This document shows positions 21,794-56,605 of a stretch of 64,000 nt of DNA, in pieces (positions within the stretch are counted from its first letter, which is position 1; every line of letters starts with the position of its first letter). The DNA is from an uncultured Poribacteria bacterium (GTDB taxonomy: Bacteria; Poribacteria; WGA-4E; PCPOR2b): positions 248,001-312,000 of the forward strand of contig OY282444.1 in assembly GCA_958296125.1 (NCBI GenBank), written 5' to 3'. The notes beneath the pieces were generated by a model, which was not told the origin of the DNA, ran no database searches, and saw nothing but the letters and a program-made list of their open reading frames with translations. Made by a program: the position numbers and the translations under genes.

Positions 21794-21818
21794 TCTGTGG
21801 GAGGGATTTCCCAATCCC
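21794..21818 (+). repeat. Dispersed 25-bp repeat, copy B
   Basis: This begins TCTGTGGGAGGGA and matches the minus-strand copy at 14376-14400 at 22 of 25 positions. A partial extra unit (GTAGGAGGGACTTCC) sits just before it at 21776. The stretch 21590-21970 otherwise holds the promoter of the giant gene and no supportable gene. Confidence 0.5.
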
Positions 21819-21971
21819 GACTGCCTACGCCCACTGAAAACATAAATGCTTGTCGGATCGCGACAGTTTCCCAAAATCAGGGGAATCGGGGGATGCTGCT
21901 CCCGATGAAGCATCGAGGATTCAAAGCAAACGGCATCTATTTATCCTTTTTCCATACATAGACACATTTTC

Positions 21972-53627: not shown

Positions 53628-55574
53628 TTAAGAGTCACACCCACACGATGTTCCACAAGAACTAGAGTCCTCAGATGCCTCAGGGTCGATCTGCGTGAGT
53701 TGTTGATTGGCTTTCTGGATTGCCAGTATTTGATCCGTGGTATCGCTTTCCGCTTCATCGGACGCAGCGGGCTTAGGTTCCGGGCGGTATCCCATCAACT
53801 GTGCAACGTGATGGACGAAGTTGGCAGCTGTGCCGATGATGCCTTTCGTGTGTGGCACCACGTATAGACCTCTCTTGAGTTCCGGATGGTCGTCGACATA
53901 CTGTTTAATCTCATCCAATGTAAACCCGGTTGCGGTAAGCACCCGGCTGAATTCCTCTTTGCACTTGACTTTGGCTTCACCCAGTGCCATCTGCACACGA
54001 CTATGCGCGTTGATCTCGCCTTCGCCGGATGTCTCAATGGGCAGGAAGATTATATCCTTAAAATGGTTCACCACCGCCGATTGTGCTCCATCGGACTGAG
54101 TAGAAGGCATGCACCCGAACGGTTTGAGACTGAGGACCATGTGACACAGATCTTTGTTATGATAGTAAATGTTTTTAGCGACCTCAAGGTGACCTTCACC
54201 TCCGCCCGATCGGGAGTTGTAGAATGGGTGCCCGAGCCGCTGCAACTCATACTGATCTGTTAAATCATGGGGCATATAGTTGAGCGCTTCCCGCATCCGA
54301 TTCCACTCTCTTTTGAAGATCGATTCAGCTATCGTCAACGTTTGCAACGAACGCTGCTGCTTGAACTTCCGGGCCAGGCTTTTATCAAGCCGCCAGGGGC
54401 GAATCGGTTCCTCTTTTTCATCGATTCCCAGACGATCCCCCATCTTCAGCTTGGCTTGATGAATCATATACACAACCCACGTGCCAACGGGTTCAACGAC
54501 GACCTGCGAACCTTCTCGTTCCAAGAATCGGAACATATTGAAGTTGCCATCTCCCTCCGTGGTCTGCGCCCAGAACTCGCCCGTGATTTTGACCGTTGGC
54601 TTGACGCGGGTGCGGTCTACCTCGATCTGATTGATGCGCTCACCGATTTCCCGGAGTTTATCCGTGTATTCGGTCCCAAATAGCTGCTCGAGGAATTTGC
54701 CAAGTGTCTCAATGGTGTTAGTCGCCTTGGGGAGACTCTTCAGGAAATGACCGACTTTGCCATCGAGCTTGAAAGAACGCTTGTTCTTAAATACGTTGTG
54801 CAACTTATCCATGCACTCTCGCAGGACTCGGTCTGTCTCGCCCTCATTGACCTCGTAGGGCCGGATCTGATAGGCGACATCGTTTAGCAAATCCCCCATA
54901 TTCATCGCATTGATGAGGGCGAGGAAGAATTCTGTGTTCAGCTCCAGACCAGCCTCTACCTCCGACTGATTCAATCCGCCGGACTGCTGGAAGAGATGGA
55001 CCCGGAATCCATCAAAGCCGGAATTTCTTAACGCCAAACGGTACTCTGCCTCATACATGCCGAAGCGACACGGCCCACACGCACCCGCGGTCAGAAAGAG
55101 ATATTTATCTATAATTTCCTCTCGGAGTTGTCCCTTGTGCTCGAGTTCCTGTAGGTGCTTTACCAGATTTCCGACCGTAAAATAAGTTGGATTACACTGA
55201 CCATTATTGCCAAACTCCTTACCAAGTTGAAAGGCTTCGACATCCGGGGTGGGTATATACTCACATTTATACCCCAAACCCTCAAGCGCGCCGTGAATCA
55301 GGTGCTCATGCCGCCAAGTCAGACCACCGAACAGAATCGTCGTATCAGCCCGCTGATCCTTTGTAAATGGGCGTTCCACAGGTTTTTCAAAATGATGAAC
55401 AAGCCCCTCCTCTATTCCCAATTCTTTCTGAAGGCTCGCTTTTTTCTCCGACAACTTTTGCTGAATGAGGGTCTCAACATCTACTGTGGGCATACTTTTG
55501 AAGCTGCTCGGAATCCCAATCTTATCGGGGTTTTCTGAATTCTGAGTATCCGCGTTTTTTTCTAAGTTACTCAC
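53628..55574 (-). CDS. 2-hydroxyacyl-CoA dehydratase D-component-like protein
   Basis: A 648-residue protein related to the HgdB-like subunits that bind an iron-sulfur cluster. Candidate cysteines are in FGNNGQCNPTYFTVGN, TAGACGPCRFGMYEAEYR and LKPFGCMPSTQSDGAQ, plus a Cys-rich tail (SSCGTSCGCDS). The N-terminal 60 residues are charged and non-conserved in appearance. It pairs with the activase 162 bases downstream; the two look like separated parts of the giant CoA-activase proteins found as single chains elsewhere (inference). The promoter region has a palindrome that probably binds the nearby TetR protein. Confidence 0.85.
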   Translation of the reverse strand: MSNLEKNADTQNSENPDKIGIPSSFKSMPTVDVETLIQQKLSEKKASLQKELGIEEGLVHHFEKPVERPFTKDQRADTTILFGGLTWRHEHLIHGALEGLGYKCEYIPTPDVEAFQLGKEFGNNGQCNPTYFTVGNLVKHLQELEHKGQLREEIIDKYLFLTAGACGPCRFGMYEAEYRLALRNSGFDGFRVHLFQQSGGLNQSEVEAGLELNTEFFLALINAMNMGDLLNDVAYQIRPYEVNEGETDRVLRECMDKLHNVFKNKRSFKLDGKVGHFLKSLPKATNTIETLGKFLEQLFGTEYTDKLREIGERINQIEVDRTRVKPTVKITGEFWAQTTEGDGNFNMFRFLEREGSQVVVEPVGTWVVYMIHQAKLKMGDRLGIDEKEEPIRPWRLDKSLARKFKQQRSLQTLTIAESIFKREWNRMREALNYMPHDLTDQYELQRLGHPFYNSRSGGGEGHLEVAKNIYYHNKDLCHMVLSLKPFGCMPSTQSDGAQSAVVNHFKDIIFLPIETSGEGEINAHSRVQMALGEAKVKCKEEFSRVLTATGFTLDEIKQYVDDHPELKRGLYVVPHTKGIIGTAANFVHHVAQLMGYRPEPKPAASDEAESDTTDQILAIQKANQQLTQIDPEASEDSSSCGTSCGCDS

Positions 55575-55678
55575 AGGTTACCTCCTTGATCCACCGTTGA
55601 AAAGTTAGTTCCATGATTATTCCGGTTCCACCTCAAATGACACGCCGGAAACAACATCAAGCCTGACCGAATTGATTC

Positions 55679-55728
55679 AGACTGACATATCAGTCTAGTA
55701 TATTAACATATCTTTATGAAAAAAGCAA
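55679..55728 (-). promoter_or_regulatory. Promoter with TetR-type operator of the dehydratase-activase operon
   Basis: On the minus strand TTGCTT (55728-55723), 17 bases and TAATAT (55705-55700) are followed at the expected transcription start by a palindrome AGACTGA-CATA-TCAGTCT (55679-55696 on the plus strand). An 18-bp palindrome over the start site is a usual TetR operator layout. Confidence 0.6.
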
Positions 55729-55747
55729 GAAACTTCTAGGTCAACTG

Positions 55748-55942
55748 TAGGGTTATTTAATTTTCCTATATTATTGTCTGAATCACGGATAACAGACGGC
55801 CTCGACAATTGGCATAAGAAGGCGCGATGAACGCGCACTTACAAACAGCGGGGCAGGGATGAACCGCCTACCGGGGGTGGGGATAGAACGGGACACTACG
55901 AACAGTAGGGCATGAGCCAAAACCGAAAACTAAATAGCCCTA
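55748..55942. mobile_element. 195-bp miniature inverted-repeat element with 10-bp target duplication
   Basis: The element begins TAGGGTTATTTAATTTTC and ends with the complement of TAGGGCTATTTAGTTTTC (16 of 18 identical). It is bracketed by perfect direct repeats AGGTCAACTG at 55738-55747 and 55943-55952. Terminal repeats plus a 10-bp duplication fit a MITE mobilised by an IS4-superfamily transposase. It has no coding capacity. Confidence 0.88.
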
Positions 55943-56011
55943 AGGTCAACTGAGCGGCACTTATGTTTCTTACGGGGTCGAAACTTTTGCTGTGATGTTA
56001 ACACGCTCCAG

Positions 56012-56605
56012 TTAAACCATCTGGGAGGTTAAAACTCCCTGCAATCCGAAATTCAAAATTTCATCCAAGATCCAATCCAGTTGAGAAAGGGCTTCCGCTT
56101 CTGAGAAGATGAGATTGGTGACCTCTTTCACGCAGCCCAGAATGCAGCGCGCGGTTACCTCCGTGTCGCACTTTCTAACCAAACCGAGTTCAATTCCGTG
56201 TTGGAGCGCAGATTCGATCTTGCCTAGCACCCCTTCATAAAATTCGCTCAACTTACTGTCAAACTCACTGTCCAAACCGACTGCGCGACTCAATAAAATC
56301 TGAGTCATGTCCGGATCTTCTAGCGCAAGCATGATAACCGATCTCAGGATATTTCTCAACTGTTCCAATGGAGGGCTTGAAGCATCTAAATCGATCCGCT
56401 TTATAATAGCTTCAAGCTCCTTAACTAGCCCGTCAAGAATGTTATCGAAGACATCCCTTTTGCTTTGAAAATAGAGATAAAATGTACCCCTGGCGATGCC
56501 TGCTCGCTGGATGATATCTGAGATACTTGTTTGATGATACCCCTTCTGCGAAAAGACCTCTTTTGCACAACGTAGCACAATTTTCTTCCGTTCTTCTCTT
56601 AACAT
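56012..56605 (-). CDS. TetR/AcrR family transcriptional regulator
   Basis: The 197 residues begin with the TetR DNA-binding domain (IVLRCAKEVFSQKGYHQTSI, then IIQRAGIARGTFYLYFQSK). A helical ligand domain follows, resembling the fatty-acid or acyl-CoA-responsive FadR-type members. It sits upstream of the dehydratase-activase genes on the same strand and probably represses them through the palindrome at 55679-55696. A MITE separates regulator and operator. Confidence 0.93.
   Translation of the reverse strand: MLREERKKIVLRCAKEVFSQKGYHQTSISDIIQRAGIARGTFYLYFQSKRDVFDNILDGLVKELEAIIKRIDLDASSPPLEQLRNILRSVIMLALEDPDMTQILLSRAVGLDSEFDSKLSEFYEGVLGKIESALQHGIELGLVRKCDTEVTARCILGCVKEVTNLIFSEAEALSQLDWILDEILNFGLQGVLTSQMV

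Follow-up and report, generated by a model that had tools for sequence, protein, structure and literature searches.

How did a short non-coding unit come to separate a TetR-family gene from the promoter region of its probable target genes, and what kind of transposase moved it there? The locus lies in a window of 64,000 nucleotides (the whole stretch of DNA analysed), which covers positions 248001-312000 of the single-contig genome of an uncultured Poribacteria bacterium (5,156,246 bases; completeness 98.85; hereafter the home genome, contig G000:C1). An earlier note, made from the letters alone, had described a non-coding element with 18-bp ends matching at 16 positions and a perfect 10-bp target duplication, set between the TetR gene and a putative operator/promoter and dependent for its movement on a transposase that acts in trans and duplicates 10 bp of target. 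The features of the locus, in window positions, are as follows.

53628-55574, minus strand: 648-aa ORF, first gene of a putative TetR-controlled unit; the insertion is in its upstream region
55679-55696, no strand: 18-bp palindrome AGACTGACATATCAGTCT, putative TetR operator, intact after the insertion and conserved in relatives
55738-55747, no strand: left copy of the target-site duplication, AGGTCAACTG, 10 bp, matching the right copy at 10/10 positions
55748-55942, plus strand: the whole MITE, 195 bp, with an interior of type C, recognised by its ends, its duplication and its lack of an ORF
55748-55765, plus strand: left-type (L) terminal inverted repeat TAGGGTTATTTAATTTTC, corresponding to the transposase 3' end of ISAs1
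55766-55924, plus strand: non-coding interior, common to copies at G000:C1:719353 and in genomes G002, G004 and G005
55925-55942, minus strand: right-type (R) terminal inverted repeat TAGGGCTATTTAGTTTTC (GAAAACTAAATAGCCCTA on the forward strand), corresponding to the transposase 5' end of ISAs1
55943-55952, no strand: right copy of the target-site duplication, AGGTCAACTG, 10 bp, matching the left copy at 10/10 positions
56012-56605, minus strand: TetR-family regulator gene (PF00440, E 1.7e-16), with the element downstream of its stop

The structural part of that description held. The two arms (55748-55765 and 55925-55942) are complementary at 16 of 18 positions, the duplication is perfect, and no ORF of at least 50 aa with an ATG, GTG or TTG start was found overlapping the 195 bp. 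The setting was also as described: a stretch of 41 bp separates the palindrome from the start of the left duplication copy, which lies 163 bp upstream of the start codon of the 648-aa gene, the palindrome falling between the element and that gene, and the PF00440 match identifies the regulator. The palindrome itself is conserved in two related loci (L153 and L154) and largely so in a third (L277), and it is probably the TetR operator. Because this promoter-proximal palindrome is intact, the effect of the insertion on the neighbouring genes is expected to be slight. The best relatives of the 648-aa protein were encoded by Candidatus Poribacteria MAGs, with 88% identity (L153, L154). Neither Pfam nor NCBIfam gave a match for the ORF, although its confirmed relatives in the genome collection are encoded by 350 stretches, most of the listed ones at 60-70% identity and across phyla, and a BadF/BadG-type activase gene adjoins it.

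The orthologous site in relatives demonstrated that the 195-bp unit is an insertion. A search of 11 genomes with the TetR protein matched six, including the home genome, which left five relatives. In three of them, one from the same genus (G001) and two from the same order (G009 and G012), the element was absent: the sequence between the stop codon of TetR and the palindrome was uninterrupted, in the same order as in the window, with one diverged copy of the target region. On the coding strand this region reads CAGTTGACTC versus CAGTTGACCT in the G001 comparison, and G009 and G012 are more diverged. The sequences at L153 and L154 are the same as those of G009 and G012 and thus were not counted again, whilst the sequence downstream of TetR in G002 and G003 was unrelated and therefore uninformative about an empty site. 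None of the five relatives carried the element at this TetR locus.

The element belongs to a family. Genome-wide, 109 L-type ends (consensus TAGGGTCATTTAATTCTT, up to three mismatches to a slightly degenerate pattern) and 87 R-type ends (consensus TAGGGCTATTTAGTTTTC, up to three mismatches) were detected, compared with 9 and 6, respectively, for the reversed-pattern controls. The family ends in the home genome are mostly of the TAGGG type (TAGGGYYATTTARTTYTY). For pairing, 75 L ends, out of 100 listed of the 109 L matches, and 76 R ends were used; L matches with three mismatches, except that at 303748, and R matches repeating an L match were left out. We examined 40 short pairs, which exclude 3606032-3606238 (spanned by no fetched locus) and pairs with a weaker partner, e.g. 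at 2517684, 2571878 and 3871718. They measured 69-529 bp (median 149.5), and 39 of the 40 consisted of one L and one R end, head to head. Flanking direct repeats scored at least 6 in 21 pairs and at least 8 in 17, where permuted flanks gave means of 0.56 and 0.44; no clear duplication was seen in the other 19. The 21 supported duplications were 8-10 bp long, mostly 9-10 bp, with 11 still perfect at a length of 9-10 bp and a twelfth at 8 bp.

Behind the same ends at least three interior types could be told apart by eye. The interior type of the window copy was also present at position 719353 and in G002, G004 and G005, with 76-86% identity over long matches. Of 39 genomes searched, 19 contained a match to the element, counting the home genome, and the matches outside the genus were short and almost all at the R end. 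A module of the type B interior, GGATYTCCGAATCCCGAC, was found at 35 places, most adjoining listed ends and some elsewhere. With one mismatch it lies without a listed MITE end nearby at window positions 21804-21821 (G000:C1:269804), G000:C1:3528405-3528706 and 4290909-4290994, which suggests that it may in addition be dispersed as a repeat in its own right. The window element is thus short and free of a transposase ORF, has terminal inverted repeats, a duplication and an empty site, and is multicopy; it is a MITE, an ordinary kind of element, and what is unusual is its family's liking for divergent gene gaps (see below). The earlier note had named as contrary evidence the same sequence at this locus in all relatives and no other copies in the genome, and this failed both ways, since dozens of copies exist and relatives are empty.

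Complete elements with nearly the same ends occur in related Poribacteria of the same order, and they belong to ISAs1. Among 97 genomes searched with NF033564, 41 had a match and 28 had one above the curated cut-off. Many complete ISAs1 copies end in a CAGGG(T/C)CATT(T/C)A(G/A)TTTT-like sequence, and some in other sequences (e.g. L242 and L248). Duplications of 9-10 bp flanked 28 of the 37 copies fetched, from five relatives, and were unsupported in the other nine; members of the ISAs1 family generate duplications of 8-10 bp. The closest insertion sequence, L253 in G049, is 1347 bp long, with ends CAGGGCCATTTAGTTTTCGGTTTTTC and CAGGGCCATTTAGTTTTAAGAT, the duplication ATATCTGACA and a protein scoring 211 bits against the NF033564 cut-off of 70; its transposase-5' end shares 23 of 26 bases with an R-end consensus. 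In general, the complete elements (L250, L253, L257 and L280-L306) resemble the MITEs in their ends, in their 9-10-bp duplications and in their intergenic and divergent bias, the sequence comparison covering the ends. Unlike the MITEs, they are about 1.34 kb long, code for a transposase (about 390 aa) and mostly begin with C, whereas the ends in the home genome mostly begin with T. However, one end of L315 (G047) begins with TAGGG. No exact autonomous partner was found among these elements. Two copies in G038:C1, L280 and L291, lie at different places and have identical 10-bp duplications (GTGTTTACAT), which may reflect duplication of the region or preference for the target.

The home genome itself was searched for the partner, as the earlier note had proposed. 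The search yielded the dozens of other copies but no full insertion sequence with the family's TAGGG ends, and no pair of ends at insertion-sequence size with a convincing duplication. NF033564 (ISAs1) and PF01609 (DDE_Tnp_1) each had no match in the home genome. End pairs 0.8-3.3 kb apart proved to be combinations of neighbouring short elements and were rejected as full insertion sequences. ORFs adjoining lone ends were likewise rejected as transposases, the nine loci read holding ordinary-looking genes and one different mobile gene. Near the lone L end at 1998119, a 414-aa ORF (L078; about G000:C1:1996250-1997500) looks by eye to be of the TnpB/OrfB type, which we take to belong to the IS200/IS605 group.

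The sole trace of ISAs1 in the home genome was a decayed 3' end encoding the C-terminus of a transposase (L079, G000:C1:2010332-2010544). With the L253 protein the genome was matched in one place (2010326-2010514, E 4.7e-4), and a profile built from eight Poribacterial ISAs1 proteins also hit one place (2010332-2010514, E 5.4e-7), aligning at positions 319-390 of 391. The relic match stops 30 bp short of the outermost base of the L-type end at 2010527-2010544, nearly the spacing of intact elements. For comparison, the ORF of intact copies ends 25-28 bp from the end of the element in four of six copies with paired ends; in the other two (L246 and L256), the end paired by the script was more distant, 139 and 254 bp, and had no duplication. 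On the other side of the relic, the sequence resembles by eye the interior of a type A MITE. The same profile found no match in five congeneric genomes, where G004 gave a weak match to NF033564 (E 1.2e-4). Hence, no intact ISAs1 transposase was detected in the six genomes of the genus searched by profile.

Taken together, the near-identical ends, the length of the duplications and the relic at a family-type end make us confident that the window element is a MITE derived from ISAs1 and moved by a transposase in trans, so the proposal of the earlier note was supported and the type of transposase can be named. The L end is the transposase-3' end because the relic adjoins an L-type end, and the R end is the transposase-5' end because of its likeness to L253; two separate lines of sequence comparison agree on this polarity. 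It is a non-autonomous derivative, in which nothing but the two different ends of an insertion sequence of the ISAs1 family is kept, and an ISAs1 transposase would bind both ends in trans. The 195-bp unit would then have been inserted at AGGTCAACTG, with the TetR gene on one side and the 648-aa gene's promoter region on the other, where a staggered cut would duplicate the 10 bp. We infer that this insertion was the work of an ISAs1 transposase, and that the enzyme was later lost from the lineage or was only visiting. As no ISAs1 transposase gene was found at home, the activity cannot have come from an intact gene that is present now. This absence, set beside duplications that are still perfect, counts against the reading, as do the T-initial ends and the pairs and insertion sequences without a supported duplication. 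The lack of an intact cognate transposase weakens any claim of present mobility, but one is not required for a MITE.

The sites that the family occupies were biased. Of the 40 MITE sites, 36 were intergenic, comprising 25 divergent, 10 tandem and one convergent gap; the gap of the window element itself is tandem, not divergent. By bases, the intergenic baseline is 25% divergent, 60% tandem and 15% convergent, as taken from the window and the 54 longer loci at distances above 1.5 kb from every listed end, and the divergent excess had a p-value of 2.6e-8, or 1.8e-7 when the baseline was restricted to gaps of at least 100 bp (27% divergent). The divergent share was 10 of 18 intergenic sites (p 0.011) in the 21 pairs with duplications versus 15 of 18 in the 19 without, a difference that was not significant (Fisher p 0.15). 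In the five relatives, 26 of the 28 supported ISAs1 copies were intergenic, 15 divergent and 11 tandem, against a divergent baseline of 21% (p 4e-5). In all these counts gene orientation came from a simple ORF caller rather than from annotation, and the p-values assume independent sites. A bias common to insertion sequences and MITEs fits target choice by the transposase, and common selection against other sites may also be its source. In a published survey, ISAs1 was over-represented between convergent genes, opposite to the bias reported here (PMC9208149).

Could the MITE, once in place, have acquired a regulatory function as a terminator, spacer or insulator that separates TetR from the operon? 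Such a role would add to the ISAs1-derived origin, and we regard it as improbable at this locus. One weak terminator-like hairpin (55838-55822) lies within the element on the strand of both genes, where 0.3 would be expected, and family members are mostly found between divergent gene starts. However, the order of TetR and palindrome is unchanged in relatives without the element, and of three promoter-like sites in the scan of the locus none was inside it. Less probable still is that the MITE stems from another transposase family, one that escaped detection and likewise has 9-10-bp duplications and TAGGG ends, with a convergent likeness to ISAs1. Copies with perfect duplications in a genome without an ISAs1 or DDE_Tnp_1 transposase, and a first end base of T, not C, are in line with such a family, but the 23 of 26 bases common to the L253 5' end, an end polarity equal to that of the ISAs1 relic, and a duplication length and site bias equal to those of ISAs1 copies argue against it. 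That the unit merely resembles an insertion and is instead a functional intergenic repeat, e.g. an RNA or a regulatory part of the TetR operon, is hardly credible: as single-stranded DNA it folds better than its shuffles (z -3.05) and it adjoins the conserved palindrome, but G001, G009 and G012 lack it at the orthologous site, the family sits at many unrelated sites, and an Rfam search of 55500-56100 gave nothing above the gathering score, the sole match (E 0.13) being well below it.

The ISAs1-derived MITEs share several properties with known bacterial families. By their description, Chunjie, ERIC and Correia are likewise short, with inverted ends, direct repeats and many intergenic copies of variable length (PMC10969869). 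ISAs1 is absent from the main text of that review, which thus names no ISAs1-derived family there. In the account of Anabaena sp. 90, 147 MITEs of 77-541 bp had no matching insertion sequence in the genome and no similarity to those present, whereas for the Poribacterial family the relatives and the relic point to ISAs1 (PMC3542288). Among the literature matches listed, which mostly leave aside subscription papers, none was found to describe a MITE family derived from ISAs1 in Poribacteria.

With these results, dozens of intergenic repeats in an uncultured phylum can be assigned to a named transposon type, and a MITE family is placed in a genus in which a profile search of six genomes detected no intact ISAs1 transposase. 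We tentatively suggest, as one possibility that may well prove wrong, that Poribacterial ISAs1 transposases choose divergent-promoter gaps and that the orphaned MITEs persist there genus-wide as spacers, some of them perhaps insulating or tuning the adjacent genes. The bias to divergent gaps that is common to the MITEs and ISAs1 turns target choice into a concrete and testable question.
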